Shown: piece after piece, positions 33,228-42,968 of the stretch
How positions within the stretch are numbered: the stretch's first letter is position 1
Layout of the letters: every line of letters starts with the position of its first letter
DNA from: Gemmatimonadaceae bacterium
Lineage (GTDB): Bacteria > Gemmatimonadota > Gemmatimonadetes > Gemmatimonadales > Gemmatimonadaceae
Direction of reading: 5' to 3'
DNA length: 64,000 nt
NCBI GenBank assembly: GCA_035533755.1
Contig: DATLTC010000077.1
Span: forward strand, 1 to 64,000
Notes under the pieces: model-generated
Seen by the model: only the letters and a program-made list of their open reading frames with translations
Told to the model about the DNA's origin: nothing
Database searches by the model: none
Position numbers and translations under genes: made by a program

Positions 33228-33725
33228 CGATGTCGCATGAGCTGAAGGAGACGGGCGGAAGGAATCCCACGGCGAGTCGCACCGCTGCAAACTCGACACA
33301 CGCGATGTCGGGCGCCAGATCCGCGCGATGCTGGGCGCGCCGCGGTATGTGGCGCGCGGATCGGACGCAAGCAGGGAATCGGAGGAATTCCGTCGTCTTC
33401 GGTCCGACGATTTCTTCGGTTTTCGCCGACAGTGGGTGGCGGGATGTGCTGCTTGATCAGGAACTCCCTATTGGCGGGTGCATCATGTTATAGTTCGTGC
33501 GCCTACCCGTCCTGCCGCCGGTACCCTCGGCGGTGCTCAACGCGAGATGACGGTGGTCTGTCGCCGGCTCCGGCCGGTTGTGCCCGGAGCCGATCCAGGT
33601 CCGGGGCTCTGCCGACGGGCGTGGGCAGTCGGTGTCTTCCAGCCTGGTTGGCGGGGGACGAGGCGAGCGGCGCGGCCGGCGAAGGACCGGCCATGCCCAC
33701 CAGCACCGGATCGATGGAGCGTTTG
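33228..33725. promoter_or_regulatory. 498-base region upstream of pntA
   Basis: This divergent region has no credible gene. A TATAGT box on the plus strand (33489-33494) in an AT-richer patch is a possible -10 element for the pnt operon, without a good -35 box. If used, it gives a leader of about 225 bases. The leader contains a 9-bp hairpin (33565-33573 with 33584-33592) and a GGCCGG/CCGGCC stem close to the start. GGAG before 33726 is the ribosome binding site. Confidence 0.4.
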
Positions 33726-34853
33726 ATGTCACTGAAAGTCGCGGTACTGAAAGAGACCCGGGCCGGCGAGCGGCGTGTGGCCATGGTGCCGGCCGTCGTC
33801 GACAAGCTGGTGAAGCTCGGCGCCGAGGTTCGGTTGCAGGCCGACGCGGGCGCGGCGGTGAGCCTGCCGGACAACGCCTACCGGAACGTCACCATCGCCA
33901 CGGATGTGTCGAGCCTGGTCGGTGATGCGGACCTCGTGCTGGCCGTGCAGCCGCCGTCGCTCGAGGTCGCGCGCGCGATGAAGGAAGGCGCCGTCCTGAT
34001 CTCGTTCGTGTACGCCCACCGGGAGCCCGAGCTCGTGAAGCTGCTCCGCGACCGGCGGATCACCTGCTTCGCCATGGAGCTGGTGCCGCGGATCACGCGC
34101 GCGCAGGCGATGGACGCGCTGTCGAGCCAGGCGGCGCTGGCCGGATATTACGCCGTGCTCCTGGCCGGCACCGAACTTCCGCGCATTTTGCCGCGAATGA
34201 CGACGGCCACCGGCGCGTTGCGGCCGGCGACCGTGCTCGTGATCGGGCTGGGCGTGGCCGGGCTGCAGTCGATCGCGACCGCGCGGCGCCTGGGCGCGGT
34301 GGTCGAGGGGTACGACGTGCGGCCCGAGACGCGCGAAGAGGCGGCGTCGCTGGGCGCGAAGTTCGTGGACACCGGCGTGGACGCGCGCGGCGAAGGCGGC
34401 TATGCGCGCGAGCTGACGGCGGAGGAGAAGGAGAAGGTGGCGGCGGCGCTGACGCGGCACATCCAGCAAGCGGACGTGGTGATCACCACCGCCGCGGTGC
34501 CGGGCCGGCCCGCGCCGAAGCTCATCAGCAAGGCGCAGGTGGACGGCATGAAGAACGGCGCGGTGATCATCGATCTGGCGGCCGAGGGTGGCGGAAACTG
34601 CGAATACACGAAACCGGGCGAGACGATCCGGATCGGACAGATCACGATCGCCGCACCGCTGAACGTGCCGTCGCTGCTCGGGGAACACGCGAGCGAACTC
34701 TACGCCAAGAACGTGCTGAACCTCCTGGAGTTGCTGGTCAAGGACCAGGCGCTCGCGCCGGATTGGGAGGATGAGGTCGTGGCGAAGACGGCGTTGACGC
34801 ATGCGGGCAAGATCACGAACGAAGCGGCCCGAGCGGCCGTGGAATCGGCTTAG
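33726..34853 (+). CDS. pntA: NAD(P) transhydrogenase subunit alpha, NAD-binding part
   Basis: The 375-residue protein is domain I, which binds NAD(H). It shows LKVAVLKETRAGERRVAMVP at the start, ATVLVIGLGVAGLQSIATAR as the dinucleotide fold, the VEGYDVRPETREEAASLGAK segment and ITTAAVPGRPAPKLI. The mobile-loop region has AAEGGGNCEYTKPGE. It is soluble and docks on the membrane subunits. It is one of three genes (split alpha subunit, as in Rhodospirillum), followed at 17 bases by the small membrane alpha subunit. The ATG at 33726 has GGAG upstream. Confidence 0.95.
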   Translation: MSLKVAVLKETRAGERRVAMVPAVVDKLVKLGAEVRLQADAGAAVSLPDNAYRNVTIATDVSSLVGDADLVLAVQPPSLEVARAMKEGAVLISFVYAHREPELVKLLRDRRITCFAMELVPRITRAQAMDALSSQAALAGYYAVLLAGTELPRILPRMTTATGALRPATVLVIGLGVAGLQSIATARRLGAVVEGYDVRPETREEAASLGAKFVDTGVDARGEGGYARELTAEEKEKVAAALTRHIQQADVVITTAAVPGRPAPKLISKAQVDGMKNGAVIIDLAAEGGGNCEYTKPGETIRIGQITIAAPLNVPSLLGEHASELYAKNVLNLLELLVKDQALAPDWEDEVVAKTALTHAGKITNEAARAAVESA

Positions 34854-34870
34854 CGCACGGAGACAGCTTC

Positions 34871-35179
34871 ATGAACGTGGAAACGGGGATCGTCGGGTTC
34901 GTCGCGCTGTACATCTTCATGCTCGCGGCATTCACCGGCTACGAGGTGATCGGGAAGGTGCCGGCCATCCTGCACACGCCGCTGATGTCGGGTTCCAACT
35001 TCGTGCACGGCATCGTCGTGGTGGGCGCGATGTATGCCCTGCTCAACGCCAGTTCGACGCCAGAACAGGTGATCGGATTCATCGGCGTGTTCCTCGGAGC
35101 GGCCAACGCGGCCGGGGGCTACGTGGTGACGGAGCGCATGCTGGAGATGTTCAAGTCCAGCGGTCCCGCCAAACACTAA
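34871..35179 (+). CDS. NAD(P) transhydrogenase subunit alpha, membrane part
   Basis: The 102-residue protein has three transmembrane helices (about 8-26, 42-58, 68-88). The family segments VALYIFMLAAFTGYEVIGKVP, LHTPLMSGSNFVHGIVVVGAM and FLGAANAAGGYVVTERMLEMF are clear. It forms part of the proton channel (domain II) with PntB. GGAG precedes the ATG, and the pntB gene starts 10 bases after its stop. Confidence 0.95.
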   Translation: MNVETGIVGFVALYIFMLAAFTGYEVIGKVPAILHTPLMSGSNFVHGIVVVGAMYALLNASSTPEQVIGFIGVFLGAANAAGGYVVTERMLEMFKSSGPAKH

Positions 35180-35189
35180 GGACGCGACC

Positions 35190-36626
35190 ATGAACCCAGT
35201 CTGGATCATCCAAGCGACCGACTTCCTGGCCGCGTTCCTGTTCATCTACGGCCTCAAGCGGATGTCGTCGCCGGTGACGGCGCGATCGGGCATTCGCGTG
35301 GCCGGCTACGGCATGCTGCTCGCGACGCTGGCCGGCTTCCTCTACGTGTTCGGCATCAGCGACGCGGCGGCGCCGCACCTGGCGGCGAACCTCGGGCTGA
35401 CGCTGCTGGCGCTGCTGGTGGGCGTGGGTTGGGCATGGCGCAGCGGCAAGCGCGTGGCCCTCACGGACATGCCGCAGATGGTGGCGCTCTACAACGGCAT
35501 GGGCGGCGGCGCGGCGGGCGCGATCGCGGCCGTGGAACTGCTCCGCGGCAGACCCGACAGCGCCACGCACCTGGCGGTCACGCTCGTGGGCGCCGTGATC
35601 GGGTCGGTGTCGTTCTCGGGGTCGCTCGTGGCATGGGCCAAGCTCGACGGACGCATCAACAAGCCGTGGCGCGTGAACGGCCAGCACCTGTACAACGCCT
35701 TCGCACTGCTGGTCACGCTGGGCGTGGGCATCGCGGTGGCCGTCGGCGTGGCGGGTGTGCCGACGCACGTGCTGATCGCCGTCTTCTTCGGCCTGGCGCT
35801 GCTCTACGGGGTGATGGCGACGATGCCGATCGGCGGCGCCGACATGCCGGTGGTGATCTCACTCTACAACGCGCTGACGGGCCTGGCCGTGGGGCTCGAC
35901 GGCTTCGTGCTGCAGAGCCCCGCGCTGATGATCGCCGGCATGGTGGTGGGATCGGCCGGCACGCTGCTGACGCTGCTGATGGCGCGGGCGATGAACCGCT
36001 CGGTGAGCAACGTGCTGTTCAGCAACTTCGGCGACGTCAGCCTGGAGCATCACGGCGAGATCAAGGGGCGGATGAAGCCGGTGGAAGCGAGCGACGCCGG
36101 CGTGGCCATGCGGTACGCGGGCAAGGTGATCATCGTGCCGGGCTATGGCCTGGCGGCGGCGCAGGCGCAACAGAAGTTGTATGAGTTCGTGAAGGCGCTG
36201 CAGGCCGCCGGCGTCGAGGTGAAGTTCGCCATCCACCCGGTGGCGGGCCGCATGCCGGGCCACATGGACGTTCTGCTGGCCGAGGCGGGCGTGCCGTATG
36301 ATCTCATCGCCGAGCTCGACGAAGTGAACGATGAGTTCTCCAGCACGGATGTGGCGTTGGTCATCGGCGCGAACGACGTCGTGAATCCGGCGGCGCGCAC
36401 GGACAAGACGTCGCCCATCTACGGGATGCCGATCCTCAACGTCGATTACGCCCACCAGGTCTACGTGATCAAGCGCGGCCAGGGCAAGGGCTACGCCGGG
36501 GTGGAGAACGAACTGTTCTACGCCGATAACTGCAACATGATCTATGGCGACGCCCGCGCGGTGCTGGTGAAGATGCTCCAGGCGGTGAAGGATCTGGGCG
36601 AGGAAGGCGCGGAGTCGGCGGCGTAG
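35190..36626 (+). CDS. pntB: NAD(P) transhydrogenase subunit beta
   Basis: The 478-residue protein has about nine transmembrane helices (1-270), including LTDMPQMVALYNGMGGGAAG and IGGADMPVVISLYNALTGLA. The NADP(H)-binding domain III follows at about 300-470 (IIVPGYGLAAAQAQQKL, KFAIHPVAGRMPGHMDVLLAEA, DVALVIGANDVVNPAARTDK, and the YAGVENELFY loop). With the two preceding genes it couples proton flow to hydride transfer from NADH to NADP+. AAGGA lies 8 bases upstream of the start. Confidence 0.97.
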   Translation: MNPVWIIQATDFLAAFLFIYGLKRMSSPVTARSGIRVAGYGMLLATLAGFLYVFGISDAAAPHLAANLGLTLLALLVGVGWAWRSGKRVALTDMPQMVALYNGMGGGAAGAIAAVELLRGRPDSATHLAVTLVGAVIGSVSFSGSLVAWAKLDGRINKPWRVNGQHLYNAFALLVTLGVGIAVAVGVAGVPTHVLIAVFFGLALLYGVMATMPIGGADMPVVISLYNALTGLAVGLDGFVLQSPALMIAGMVVGSAGTLLTLLMARAMNRSVSNVLFSNFGDVSLEHHGEIKGRMKPVEASDAGVAMRYAGKVIIVPGYGLAAAQAQQKLYEFVKALQAAGVEVKFAIHPVAGRMPGHMDVLLAEAGVPYDLIAELDEVNDEFSSTDVALVIGANDVVNPAARTDKTSPIYGMPILNVDYAHQVYVIKRGQGKGYAGVENELFYADNCNMIYGDARAVLVKMLQAVKDLGEEGAESAA

Positions 36627-38128: not shown

Positions 38129-38815
38129 TCAGGAGGCGCGGCGGTCCGACCGGTGGTGGTGCGCGGGCCAGAGCTCGGTTTGCGGGAGCTCTTCATCGAG
38201 GCGGCTGCGCACACGCGCCGCGACGTCGTCGATCGCGTCCGGATCGGCGACGAGGTCGTACTCGCGCACGTCGAGGCGCAGCACCGGACAGTGGTGGAAC
38301 CCGGCGATCCACCGCTCGTAGCGGCCGTGGAGGGCGCGCCAGTATTCCGGATCCGTGTCTCGCTCCTTGGGACGGCCGCGGGTGGCGATGCGCTCGACGA
38401 TCGTCTCGAGCGGTCCGTGCAGGTAAAGGAGGAGGCGGGGTGGGCGCGCGGCGGGTGCGTGCAGCAGTTCGGCGTAGAGCTGCTGGTAGAGCCGCCATTC
38501 GTCGGGGCTCATGAGGTCCTGCTCGAACAGGCCGCGGGCGAACACCTCGGCGTCCTCATACCAGGTGCGGTCGAGCACCCAGCTGCCGCCGGTACCGACG
38601 ATGCGGCGCATGGCGGCGAATCGCGTGGCGAGAAAGTGGAGCTGGAGGTGCATGCCATAGGCACGCATGCCGTCGGGGCCCGCGTAGAACCGGTCGAGCC
38701 AGGGGTTCTCGTCATCCACGCTCTCGAGGGCCAATTGCAGGCCGAAGCGGGACGCGAGGGCGCGCGCGAGGGTCGTCTTGCCGGACCCCACCATGCCTGC
38801 TACACCGAGCAACAT
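38129..38815 (-). CDS. Deoxynucleoside kinase
   Basis: The 228-residue protein has the P-loop GMVGSGKTTL at the N terminus and the family segments LDRFYAGPDG, LQLHFLATRF, DRTWYEDAEVFA and LYLHGPLETIVERIATRGR (a lid-like region rich in Arg). This is the fold of deoxyadenosine/deoxyguanosine kinases, which phosphorylate deoxynucleosides in salvage. Substrate preference cannot be read from sequence. It is a soluble single gene, 71 bases upstream of the glycine-zipper gene. Confidence 0.88.
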   Translation of the reverse strand: MLLGVAGMVGSGKTTLARALASRFGLQLALESVDDENPWLDRFYAGPDGMRAYGMHLQLHFLATRFAAMRRIVGTGGSWVLDRTWYEDAEVFARGLFEQDLMSPDEWRLYQQLYAELLHAPAARPPRLLLYLHGPLETIVERIATRGRPKERDTDPEYWRALHGRYERWIAGFHHCPVLRLDVREYDLVADPDAIDDVAARVRSRLDEELPQTELWPAHHHRSDRRAS

Positions 38816-38881: not shown

Positions 38882-39409
38882 TTACAGCGTGAGGAAGGCG
38901 GCCTTCCAGAGGTCGGGATCCGAATCTTCCTGATACAGCTTGTCCAGATCCACCGTGACGTTGCCGCCGTTCTTCTGCACGGCGAAGCGGTCCATGCTGC
39001 GCGTGGCGCGCCCGTCGATGAACACGCCGTCGGCCGTGTATTCGGAGTGGTGCTTGGGACAATGGAATTCCTGGTCCGCCGGGTCCCACCGCAGGGCGGT
39101 GTTCTGGTGCGGACAGGCCAGCGAGAACGCGAACAGCTTGCCTTGGGTGCGCGCGATGATGACCGATTGGTCCTGATCGATGTTGACGCTGTCGGTGCCG
39201 GGGATGGCGTAGCTCTTGAGCTGGTCGCCGCTGTGCACGGCGCGGATGAACCGCGTCTCGAGCGCGGCGGCGTTGGCGGGCAATGCGCCCAGCGCGACGA
39301 GGGTGCCGGCCACCATGACCGCGGCGTCGCGCAGGAACTGCCGGCGTCCTCCCACCGCGCAGCCTGCACACGCGTCGTCGACGCCGCCGGGAACGTGCTT
39401 CGTATCCAT
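38882..39409 (-). CDS. Rieske [2Fe-2S] protein A, Tat-exported, without disulfide cysteines
   Basis: The 175-residue protein has a twin-arginine type leader (GGRRQFLRDAAVMVAGTLVA). Its Rieske cluster ligands are C99 and H101 (CPHQ) and C117 and H120 (CPKH). The two extra cysteines that form the disulfide in high-potential Rieske proteins are absent, so a lower potential is likely. The protein probably acts at the periplasmic face. The ATG at 39409 has GGAG nine bases upstream. It follows a four-helix membrane protein by 23 bases and looks like its partner. Confidence 0.85.
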   Translation of the reverse strand: MDTKHVPGGVDDACAGCAVGGRRQFLRDAAVMVAGTLVALGALPANAAALETRFIRAVHSGDQLKSYAIPGTDSVNIDQDQSVIIARTQGKLFAFSLACPHQNTALRWDPADQEFHCPKHHSEYTADGVFIDGRATRSMDRFAVQKNGGNVTVDLDKLYQEDSDPDLWKAAFLTL

Positions 39410-39432
39410 CACTCCATTCTCCAGAATGCGCA

Positions 39433-39936
39433 TTACATGTTCGCCAGGATGATGCCGGCGAGTGAGATGGTGAACCAGAGGCCGATGCTCGCGAGCGCGG
39501 TGCGCCGCAGCGTGGCCCAACGCTCGACGCCATTGGCCGTGCCCTCGCGCAACCCGCGTTCGGTGCGCTGCATGACGTAGCCGTTGACGAGGAGCGCGAC
39601 GATCAGCGCCATCTTGGTCCAGAACACCCAGGAACCGAAAAACGTCTTGACGTCGGCGGCGAACAGCAGCAGTCCCGAGATTGCCGAAACGGCGAGCCCG
39701 CCGATCACCCACGCGTGCACGGTACCCATGTCCTCGAGGTGCAGGGCGCGCACCGAGTCGCCGGCCTTGATGGCGCGGAACGTGTCACGGTCGGTGGACA
39801 GGGCGAAGCCGCCGGCCAGCACGAGCGCGCCAACGTGGAGGAAGGTGACCACCGTGGGCACCACCTTGGAACGGTCGTAGAACTCGGCCCAGGGCTTCAG
39901 CAGGTGTACCACCAACTCGGGTGCGGCGAGAATCAT
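39433..39936 (-). CDS. Four-helix membrane protein with helix-borne histidines (module A)
   Basis: The 167-residue protein has four hydrophobic helices (about 27-48, 73-94, 101-120, 143-165). His residues lie within or at the ends of the first two helices ([12 protein letters not shown] and [17 protein letters not shown]). That is compatible with a haem b site, as in small cytochrome b-like or CopD-like proteins; I do not recognise the exact family. It stands directly before the Rieske A gene. It may be the membrane anchor or electron partner of the Rieske protein. Confidence 0.6.
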
Positions 39937-40074
39937 AGGGAGAGGTGTTGGGTCCGGGTCTGCACTGAGGCGCCGGGTGGATGGAGCGGCACGAGCCGGG
40001 CGGCTCGCGCGACGTTGGATAACGCGTGGAGGTCCGGAATCGTTCGCGGGTCGTGCGCGTGGCGTGTCACGACG

Positions 40075-40527
40075 TCACGACCCGATGGTCAGCAGGTCGG
40101 TGGTCGCGTCATAGGAGGTGCTGTACTGCGTGAGGGCCCGGTTGGCGGGCCCGCGCGTGACCTGGCCACTGCTGTTGAACGACGCCCCGTGGCAGGGGCA
40201 GTAGAACGCGTTGCTCTGCAGGACGGTGAGGCAGCCCTGGTGGGTGCAGACCATGGAGTAGGCGGCGAAGGTGGCGGCTCCGGTTCGTTTGACGGCGCGG
40301 TAGCTGTCCACCTGGACGAGTCGGCCGACGGTGGCGAGCCCGGCGTAGTTGCCGACCTTGAAGCCCGGTGCCGTATTGCCGCCCGATGAGCCGTTGCCGT
40401 TGGGAACCGTCACGGCCGTGGGCCCGATCTGCCCGTTGCCGCATCCGACGACGACCGCGGCGGCCGCGGCGGCGAGCGCCGATTTGGCGAGAAACTCCCG
40501 CCGGCTCACGCAATCCTCACATCCCAT
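40075..40527 (-). CDS. Rieske [2Fe-2S] protein B, Tat-exported, with disulfide cysteines
   Basis: The 150-residue protein has a twin-arginine leader (SRREFLAKSALAAAAAAVVV) ending in a Cys that could be a lipoprotein site (VGC). Ligands are C94 and H96 (CTHQGC) and C110 and H113 (CPCH). C99 and C112 form the disulfide of classical high-potential Rieske proteins. The start at 40527 has GGGAG five bases upstream. It is the second Rieske gene in this stretch, again preceded by a small membrane-protein gene. Bases 39937-40074 hold no gene. Confidence 0.88.
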   Translation of the reverse strand: MGCEDCVSRREFLAKSALAAAAAAVVVGCGNGQIGPTAVTVPNGNGSSGGNTAPGFKVGNYAGLATVGRLVQVDSYRAVKRTGAATFAAYSMVCTHQGCLTVLQSNAFYCPCHGASFNSSGQVTRGPANRALTQYSTSYDATTDLLTIGS

Positions 40528-40591
40528 GGGTGCTCCCGGTGTCATGCATCATGTGTGACGTCCACGCGGCGGCCGCCGAGCGGACCGCGCG

Positions 40592-41182
40592 TCAATGATT
40601 GAAGAAGGTCATCATCAGACTGCTGGCGAGGGTGAGGCCCATCGCCGAGATCGTGATCGTGCGGTGCAACTGGCGTTTGGCGAGGCTGTTCTGGGCCTGC
40701 GTGGCCACCGTGCTCCCGGCGTAGCTGAACGCCCCGTCGGCGATCAGCATCGTGAGCGTGTGCACGATACGCATGGTCCGGTGATCGGGAACGTTTCGCG
40801 AGTCCCAGAGGTTCCAGAGACCGGTGACCGTATTGACGGCGAACACGCCGACGAGCGCCGTGGCGAACACGCGATGTCCGGTGATCGCCCAGGTGGGCGC
40901 GTTGCGCGACTCGGCCCACAGGCGCCGGCCAAAGACGTACTCGCCGGCGAACAGCGGGTAGATGGCGTAGCTCATGTCGCGGTGGATCGCGAGGCGCGAG
41001 TAGTACGCGTCGCTGAGTTCGATGGCGCGGGGACGCGGCCTCCGGCGCACCGTGTCGCGCGGCGCCGGGACGACGAACGGCGCCGCGGGCTGCGAGTCTC
41101 TCACCGGGACCGGGTTCGGCGGCGTGGTGTCGGCGAACGCGCCCGTGGATAACGTCAGTGCGAGGACGGCGTGAACGAGCAT
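40592..41182 (-). CDS. Small membrane protein with helix-borne histidines (module B)
   Basis: The 196-residue protein has a signal-like first helix (MLVHAVLALTLSTGAFA), a Pro-rich stretch, and three or four further helices with His at helix ends (AITGHRVFATALVGVFAV, HRTMRIVHTLTMLIADGAF, HRTITISAMGLTLASSLMM). Several paired histidines in helices are what one expects of a cytochrome b561-like haem protein, but the family was not recognised. It lies upstream of Rieske B on the same strand, mirroring module A. The ATG at 41182 is the best start; no strong ribosome binding site is seen. Confidence 0.55.
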   Translation of the reverse strand: MLVHAVLALTLSTGAFADTTPPNPVPVRDSQPAAPFVVPAPRDTVRRRPRPRAIELSDAYYSRLAIHRDMSYAIYPLFAGEYVFGRRLWAESRNAPTWAITGHRVFATALVGVFAVNTVTGLWNLWDSRNVPDHRTMRIVHTLTMLIADGAFSYAGSTVATQAQNSLAKRQLHRTITISAMGLTLASSLMMTFFNH

Positions 41183-41431
41183 CGGAGCCCAGGACGGAGG
41201 GATGTCAGCGGCCGCGCAGCGCGCGCGCGACCGACGCCATGACGAGGGTGCGGGACAGTACCCCCCACCCGGAATGTTTGATCCATCACCTAATCTATGC
41301 CCCGGCCGCCGTTCGGGTTCCCGGGAGGGGACGCGAACGGCCCGCCGGCGGGGCTGCGATGCCGGGACGGGTGGGCGCGCGGCCTGGGCAGGCCGTGGAC
41401 AATGCGGTACCGACACCGTAATTCGCAGCGT

Positions 41432-42328
41432 ATGCAGATCGCACTGTCGGGGTCGTCGGGATTTCTGGGGCGCCATCTCGAGCGCCGTCTGGAGGATGCC
41501 GGGCACGTGGTGCGGCGCCTGGTGCGCACGGCCGATGCGCGCGACGGCATCGTGTGGAACCCCGAGGCCGGCGGGCTCGATCCGGCGGCCCTGTCGGGCA
41601 TCGACGTGGTGGTTCATCTGGCCGGCGAGCCGATCGCGCAGCGGTGGACGCGGGAGCGCAAGCGTCGCATTCGCGAGAGCCGGGTGCGGGGCACGGAGAC
41701 GATCGCGCGGGCGATGGTCGGCGCGCGCGATCGTCCGCGCGTGCTGTTGTCGGGCTCGGCGGTGGGGATCTACGGTGATCGCGGGGACGAGGTGCTGGAC
41801 GAGCGCAGCGGGCGGGGCAAGGACTTCCTGGCCGCAGTGGCCACGGAGTGGGAGCGGGCCACCGATCCGGCGCGCGACGTGGGCGTGCGCGTGGTGCAGC
41901 TTCGGACCGGGTTGGTGCTGGCGGAGGATGGCGGCGCGCTGGCCAAGATGCTGCCGCTGTTCCGGGCCGGCGTGGGGGGGCCGATCGGGACGGGGCGGCA
42001 GTGGATGAGTTGGATCACGCGGGAGGATTTCGTGCGGGCGGTGCTGTTCCTGCTCGGCGCGGAGGAGGCGGCAGGGCCGGTGAACGTGGTGGGGCCGCAT
42101 CCGGCGCGCAACGCGGAATTCGCGCGGCTCCTGGGGCGCGCATTGCACCGGCCGGCGGTGCTGCCGGTGCCGGCCGTGGCCCTGAGGCTGGCATTCGGGG
42201 AGATGGCGCAGAGCACGCTGCTCGCCAGCCAGCGGGCGCTGCCGCGGCGTCTGGGAGAGCTGGGGTTCCAGTTCCGGTTCCCGCTGCTCGCCGACGGGCT
42301 GGCGTTCGAATTGGGGCGGACGGTCTAG
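41432..42328 (+). CDS. TIGR01777-type NAD(P)-dependent epimerase-like protein
   Basis: The 298-residue protein belongs to the extended SDR fold: IALSGSSGFLGRHLERRLE dinucleotide motif, VVHLAGEPI, LLSGSAVGIYGDRGDEVLDE and VQLRTGLVLAEDGGALAKML. The GTGRQWMSWITREDFVRAVL stretch and the C-terminal DUF1731-like end are those of the YfcH/TIGR01777 family. Its substrate is unknown. The 249 bases upstream (41183-41431) are a divergent spacer with no gene and no clear promoter. The end overlaps the convergent LytTR gene by 4 bases. Confidence 0.88.
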   Translation: MQIALSGSSGFLGRHLERRLEDAGHVVRRLVRTADARDGIVWNPEAGGLDPAALSGIDVVVHLAGEPIAQRWTRERKRRIRESRVRGTETIARAMVGARDRPRVLLSGSAVGIYGDRGDEVLDERSGRGKDFLAAVATEWERATDPARDVGVRVVQLRTGLVLAEDGGALAKMLPLFRAGVGGPIGTGRQWMSWITREDFVRAVLFLLGAEEAAGPVNVVGPHPARNAEFARLLGRALHRPAVLPVPAVALRLAFGEMAQSTLLASQRALPRRLGELGFQFRFPLLADGLAFELGRTV

Positions 42329-42807
42329 CCGATCAGCGCGTCGAGGCGGTCGCTGAACACGCGGCTGGCCGAGAGCCGCGTGCCGTCGTCGAGGATCACC
42401 ACGTATTCCCCGTGCAGCCAGGGCTGCAGCTCGCGGATGCGGTCGACGTTGACGATGGCCGATCGGTGGATGCGGACGAAGACGGCGGGGTCGAGCCGCG
42501 TCTCCATGTTCTTCATGCTCTGGCGGAGCACGTGCGCGCTGCCGCGGACGTGCAGCCGCACGTAGTTGCCGGCGGCCTCCACCCATTCGATCTCCTCCTG
42601 GCGGAGGAAGAGCAGGCGGCGTTCGGAGCGCACGACGATGCGAGAGCGCTGGCGTTCGGCGCGCAGCAGTTCGAACACCGTGCGGGCGATGGAATCGACG
42701 CGGGACGGCGCGGTGCCGGCCCGGTCGCGGTTTGAAACGTCGGGACGGAGCGCGTCGCCGTGTGGATCATCCTCGGCAAGGCTCAGCAGTCGGGTGGATT
42801 CCGTCAT
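42325..42807 (-). CDS. LytTR-domain DNA-binding regulator, without receiver
   Basis: The 160-residue protein has a charged N-terminal part and the LytTR domain at about 60-158 (RRLLFLRQEEIEWVEAAGNY, MKNMETRLDPAVFVRIHRSA, IVNVDRIRELQPWLHGEY, VVILDDGTRLSASRVF). The domain binds short direct repeats in promoters. There is no receiver domain, so it must respond to something else or act constitutively. The ATG at 42807 is used; a TTG five codons upstream is possible. Bases 42808-42968 upstream hold no gene. Confidence 0.87.
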   Translation of the reverse strand: MTESTRLLSLAEDDPHGDALRPDVSNRDRAGTAPSRVDSIARTVFELLRAERQRSRIVVRSERRLLFLRQEEIEWVEAAGNYVRLHVRGSAHVLRQSMKNMETRLDPAVFVRIHRSAIVNVDRIRELQPWLHGEYVVILDDGTRLSASRVFSDRLDALIG

Positions 42808-42968
42808 GGGACAGTTCCGCAAGGGTGAAGGGATGCGGGGCGCGAGACACGGGCCTCAGGCACTTAGACACCGTTCCCTACGGATTGGTAGCCGTTCTGG
42901 TGTCCGTAATCTGTAAAGACATGGTGAACGATACCCGGCGTTGGTCGGAGGCCGCGGTGCGGAACGAC

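Follow-up and report, generated by a model that had tools for sequence, protein, structure and literature searches.

The four genes described here probably constitute a small membrane electron-transfer unit with a b561-like conduit and periplasmic Rieske carriers, a compact, well-conserved set that is separate from any bc complex and pairs a b561-like cytochrome candidate with Rieske proteins. The window analysed is the whole stretch of 64,000 nt from Gemmatimonadaceae bacterium (GCA_035533755.1, contig DATLTC010000077.1, positions 1 to 64,000, forward strand), on contig C77 of a 98%-complete genome of 3.25 Mb belonging to a soil-type bacterium. As the initial annotation of this DNA had it, the four genes are minus-strand ORFs within 38882-41182 in the order memB, Rieske B, memA and Rieske A (Table 1), and its membrane/Rieske electron-transfer unit is retained as a real one, having a genomic linkage conserved in dozens of genera. 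The intergenic gaps are 64 nt between memB and Rieske B (with the preferred start of the latter), 138 nt between Rieske B and memA and 23 nt between memA and Rieske A, so the co-transcription of the four genes is plausible. The deoxynucleoside kinase gene directly downstream is syntenic with the cassette in about 10 loci and is probably an incidental neighbor.

Table 1. Genes of the membrane/Rieske cassette and neighboring genes in the window.
Feature	Position	Strand	Evidence or remark
memB, 196-aa membrane protein	40592..41182	(-)	ORF; b561-like diheme His pattern
Rieske B, Tat lipoprotein with Rieske [2Fe-2S] domain	40075..40527	(-)	ORF; Pfam PF00355, TIGR01409
memA, 167-aa four-helix membrane protein	39433..39936	(-)	ORF; PF20349 (DUF6644), DUF2214/HemJ/CopD-like
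Rieske A, Tat-exported Rieske protein	38882..39409	(-)	ORF; Pfam PF00355
Deoxynucleoside kinase	38129-38815	(-)	Directly downstream of the cassette
TIGR01777 epimerase-like gene	41297-42328		Upstream of memB
LytTR-domain DNA-binding protein	42325-42822		Upstream of memB
NAD(P) transhydrogenase subunit-like genes	33432-36626		Judged by sequence inspection, not by profile

Of 395 genomes sampled from the phylum Gemmatimonadota, 122 had a match to the memB profile, and the memB sequence alone had matches in 45 of 99 relatives. A strong Rieske A was present in 43 of these 45 memB-bearing relatives and in 8 of the 54 others (Fisher p=3e-17, with relatedness ignored). Profiles mapped 140 loci, 116 of them distinct after duplicate removal and some ending at contig edges. 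The genes of the cassette lie next to each other on one strand in dozens of genera. Of the 116 distinct loci, 81 have memB together with memA and Rieske A, and Rieske B is found in about half (63/116); therefore, the core of the cassette consists of the former three genes, to which Rieske B is an optional addition. The commonest order is memB-memA-RieA-RieB (37 distinct loci), followed by memB-memA-RieA (26), RieA alone (11), the alternating order of the window (9) and memA-RieA (6), with further orders in the remaining loci. The description of the layout as two consecutive modules thus fits a minority order, with about 11 of the 116 distinct loci when the extra-copy variants are counted, and it was given up. 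The pairing of membrane protein and Rieske genes, on whose conservation elsewhere the initial annotation had staked its proposal, was conserved in the neighborhood survey of the relatives. In five loci (L100, L139, L142, L174 and L190), an opposite-strand ABC-F gene splits memB, together with Rieske B if present, from memA-Rieske A; this interruption was judged incidental. No recurrent functional neighbor beyond the four genes was found in the cassette flanks of the surveyed loci, where a conserved gene for a catalytic or c-type partner is likewise lacking. The related records found with Rieske A as the query were Gemmatimonadota MAGs, and a few MAGs labelled Acidobacteriota/Vicinamibacterales (loci L192 and L201), a kind of label that can be wrong, carry exactly the three-gene core. 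The cassette is also present in an isolate of Roseisolibacter and in a MAG labelled Gemmatimonas phototrophica.

The initial annotation had placed possible haem b-binding histidines in the helices of both membrane proteins, a claim for which the pattern is strong in memB, with four invariant histidines, and weaker in memA, with two. The AlphaFold2 model of memB (pLDDT 87.6) predicts helices at residues 60-94, 97-127, 135-163 and 167-194, and the alignment of 39 sequences has one invariant histidine for each of them (H67, H103, H141 and H173), always residue 6-7 of its own predicted helix. In the cytochrome b561 core, four consecutive helices likewise carry H1-H4, of which the pairs H1/H3 and H2/H4 each hold one haem (PMC10691727). 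The spacing of the memB histidines is 36/38/32, compared with 41/30/36 for CG8399 as derived from the numbering in PMC10691727. With helices 1/3 and 2/4 parallel, two bis-His sites would be put on opposite faces, and since the order of the histidines is the same as in the b561 pairs, memB likely carries two b-haems across the membrane.

Neither profile nor fold assigns memB to the cytochrome b561 family. The profile search suggested for the two membrane proteins gave a match above the cut-off for memA (DUF6644) and none for memB, which in the window is below every Pfam and NCBIfam cut-off. Among the 39 memB relatives, weak matches were to DUF4079 (21), DUF420 (15) and PF01292 of cytochrome b561 (5), and one relative weakly resembles COX15-CtaA. 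Neither the sequence search nor the fold comparison of the model found a homolog in the PDB; the comparison with cytochrome b561 4o6y (E about 1, TM about 0.34) was not significant, and a sequence match of 30 residues to the designed diheme protein 4D2 (E=3e-4) was attributed to convergent helix composition, not homology. An internal duplication of memB (TM1-2 against TM3-4) was not significant in hhalign.

The other membrane protein, memA, has no homology to memB that could be found, and the two are considered unrelated. It matches PF20349 (DUF6644) with 28.1 bits against a cut-off of 27 and weakly resembles DUF2214, HemJ (UPF0093) and CopD, with DUF2214 and HemJ below the cut-off (UPF0093, 17.5 bits against the curated 34.2). 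Its model has four helices (pLDDT 95.9), and the invariant residues of the family alignment are H34, H74, K108 and N118. The presence of haem is less certain in memA than in memB.

Both Rieske proteins pass the PF00355 cut-off of 20.3, with 41.2 and 40.0 bits, and keep the cluster ligands CxH...CxxH. In Rieske A these are C99, H101, C117 and H120, with Ser122 and Tyr124 present, the disulfide cysteines absent and a family signature, GRATRxMDR, after the cluster; its solved relatives are mostly of the respiratory type (b6f-type, anammox and AioB). In Rieske B the ligands are C94, H96, C110 and H113, the disulfide pair is C99/C112, and Ala115 and Phe117 occupy the Ser/Tyr positions. This numbering, also that of the initial annotation, corresponds to the ATG at 40527, which is preceded by a GGGAG Shine-Dalgarno sequence; an alternative start is possible at 40545. 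The Tat leaders noted earlier on both proteins were confirmed, having an RRxFL motif and then a hydrophobic stretch, and the RR motifs are conserved among the homologs of each. The lipobox Cys29 of Rieske B is invariant across homologs, which makes the protein a Tat lipoprotein, and the Rieske A signal ends in a conserved AxA-like region, so the protein may be released or anchored. In both window signals, a Cx2C precedes the RR motif (39350-39410; 40490-40527), and Cx2-3C is found before RR in 92/105 Rieske A and 50/63 Rieske B sequences, in comparison with 2/71 other Tat-like genes chosen by a coarse rule. Tandem two-domain Rieske B lipoproteins are encoded at L075:6137-6946, L082:4380-5198 and L095:9189-10067, and around the cassette of the last, in genome G046, Rieske B is present in several copies. 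Separately, a small soluble Rieske ferredoxin-like gene is located among suf-like iron-sulfur assembly genes (L002, G000:C15).

As had been stated, the cysteines C99 and C112 of Rieske B have no counterparts in Rieske A; however, the argument for two clusters of different potential that was built on this difference does not hold. The disulfide pair was found in 0 of 108 Rieske A domains and in 27 of 72 Rieske B domains, being absent in the other 45, and is therefore not characteristic of the family; neither family belongs to the high-potential (disulfide) Rieske class as defined by a conserved pair. In addition, disulfides do not set the Rieske potential: the AioB of NT-26 lacks the disulfide at +225 mV, and adding one lowered the potential (PMC3758308). 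In the yeast Rieske protein, the potential drops by about 130 mV when Ser is lost and by about 65 mV when Tyr is lost (PMC12954380). Ser/Tyr are kept in 96 of 108 Rieske A domains, and Ala/Phe are found in 49 Rieske B domains. With Ser/Tyr in Rieske A and Ala/Phe in the window Rieske B, the assignment of high and low potential in the initial annotation does not follow, and judging from these residues the order could be the reverse. As the two cysteines appear or vanish in the 72 Rieske B domains as a pair and never singly, the Rieske domains of the cassette are a natural set where the disulfide comes and goes while the Ser/Tyr positions vary.

In the arrangement proposed here, the binding of haem, the formation of a complex, the direction of electron flow, the role of quinone and the acceptor are all inferred. 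In it, memB would be a b561-like diheme cytochrome whose two b-haems carry electrons one at a time across the cytoplasmic membrane, with H67/H141 near one face and H103/H173 near the other. A second, HemJ/DUF2214-like subunit, memA, possibly with one b-haem, may provide the quinone/membrane interface. In the periplasm, Rieske A would exchange electrons with the membrane part, as acceptor or donor, and Rieske B would be an optional membrane-tethered carrier that could extend the chain to an acceptor or donor whose gene lies elsewhere.

A further, tentative reading is that of a minimal quinol:periplasmic-carrier oxidoreductase of Gemmatimonadota not described before, where a diheme four-helix cytochrome with a HemJ-like subunit would reduce Rieske proteins exported by Tat; the lipoprotein among these, which has tandem-cluster versions, may act as a tethered electron wire.

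It is unlikely that memA and memB help respiratory enzymes to acquire haem or copper while the Rieske proteins donate electrons locally. The weak likeness of memA to HemJ (UPF0093) and CopD and of memB relatives to DUF420, and once to COX15-CtaA, agrees with such a biogenesis or assembly cluster, but the distribution (45/99 relatives) is patchy for a core assembly function, oxidase genes are not conserved beside the cassette in the flank survey, and the four invariant histidines of memB suit stable haem binding. A role as a generic electron supply for a periplasmic reductase or oxygenase that is not linked to the cassette, in detoxification or substrate-specific respiration, has an equally low probability. 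The lack of a catalytic subunit in the cassette, the varying copy number of Rieske B and the tandem-Rieske versions are consistent with it; however, the respiratory-type kinship of Rieske A argues against oxygenase ferredoxins.

Still more doubtful is a minimal complex III analog, in which memB and Rieske A would bifurcate the electrons of menaquinol (Q cycle) and replace bc1 in Gemmatimonadota. A diheme b pattern and a Rieske protein do meet in a single cassette, and cytochrome b had been reported in only 23% of Gemmatimonadota genomes, where novel modules may exist; that genomic survey left the identity of the complex III modules open (PMC9426454). However, the cassette stands apart from the classical bc complex, as the initial annotation had held. 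There is no PF00033 among its genes and no cytochrome b gene in the window, the two PF00033 hits of the genome falling on C42 and C56, and the closest plausible CXXCH protein lies some 35 kb away. A standard bc operon on contig C42 encodes a Tat Rieske protein, a c-type cytochrome and a cytochrome b to which a c-type domain is fused; the bc-type cytochrome b gene on C56 is separate from it. Strong bc cytochrome b was found in 18 of 45 cassette-bearing relatives and 17 of 54 others (p=0.41); with no anti-correlation in the 99 relatives, the cassette was rejected as a bc replacement. NrfD-family proteins, a possible alternative complex III, are present in all 99. Bc-type cytochrome b has two histidines on each of two helices, and the memB layout, with one per helix, is b561-like and not bc-like. 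The cassette adds to the respiratory chain and is not a substitute for bc. Finally, chance neighborhood of unrelated genes, supported only by the absence of a known named system, is extremely improbable and is refuted by the same-strand adjacency in dozens of genera and the strong co-occurrence.

The building blocks are already known, and the combination of a b561-like membrane protein with a Rieske set appears to be new; no description of the cassette was found in the open-access literature searched, and papers on DUF6644 and DUF4079 added nothing of use. The cassette is directly testable, including in or near cultured relatives.

Among known systems, the cytochrome b561 core (PF01292/PF03188) shares with memB the four consecutive helices with one invariant histidine each and the two b-haems predicted on opposite faces; however, memB lacks the six-helix b561 context and has no significant profile or fold match. 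CYBDOM proteins have an attached extracytoplasmic redox domain, whereas the cassette has a separate Rieske partner. HemJ (UPF0093), DUF2214, DUF6644 and CopD resemble memA in the four helices and the invariant His and Lys, but memA is linked to Rieske genes and has no haem-synthesis or copper context. AioB is one of the solved proteins most closely related to Rieske A; it is likewise a Tat-exported respiratory-type Rieske protein and in NT-26 also lacks the disulfide. A molybdopterin AioA-like subunit was not seen in the cassette or beside it in the loci read by eye. As in bc1/b6f and other Rieske/cytochrome b complexes, a b-haem candidate is paired with a Tat-exported Rieske protein, but the cassette has neither a PF00033/PF00032-type cytochrome b nor c1/f, and Rieske A, without a disulfide, carries GRATR where a GPAx loop is usual.
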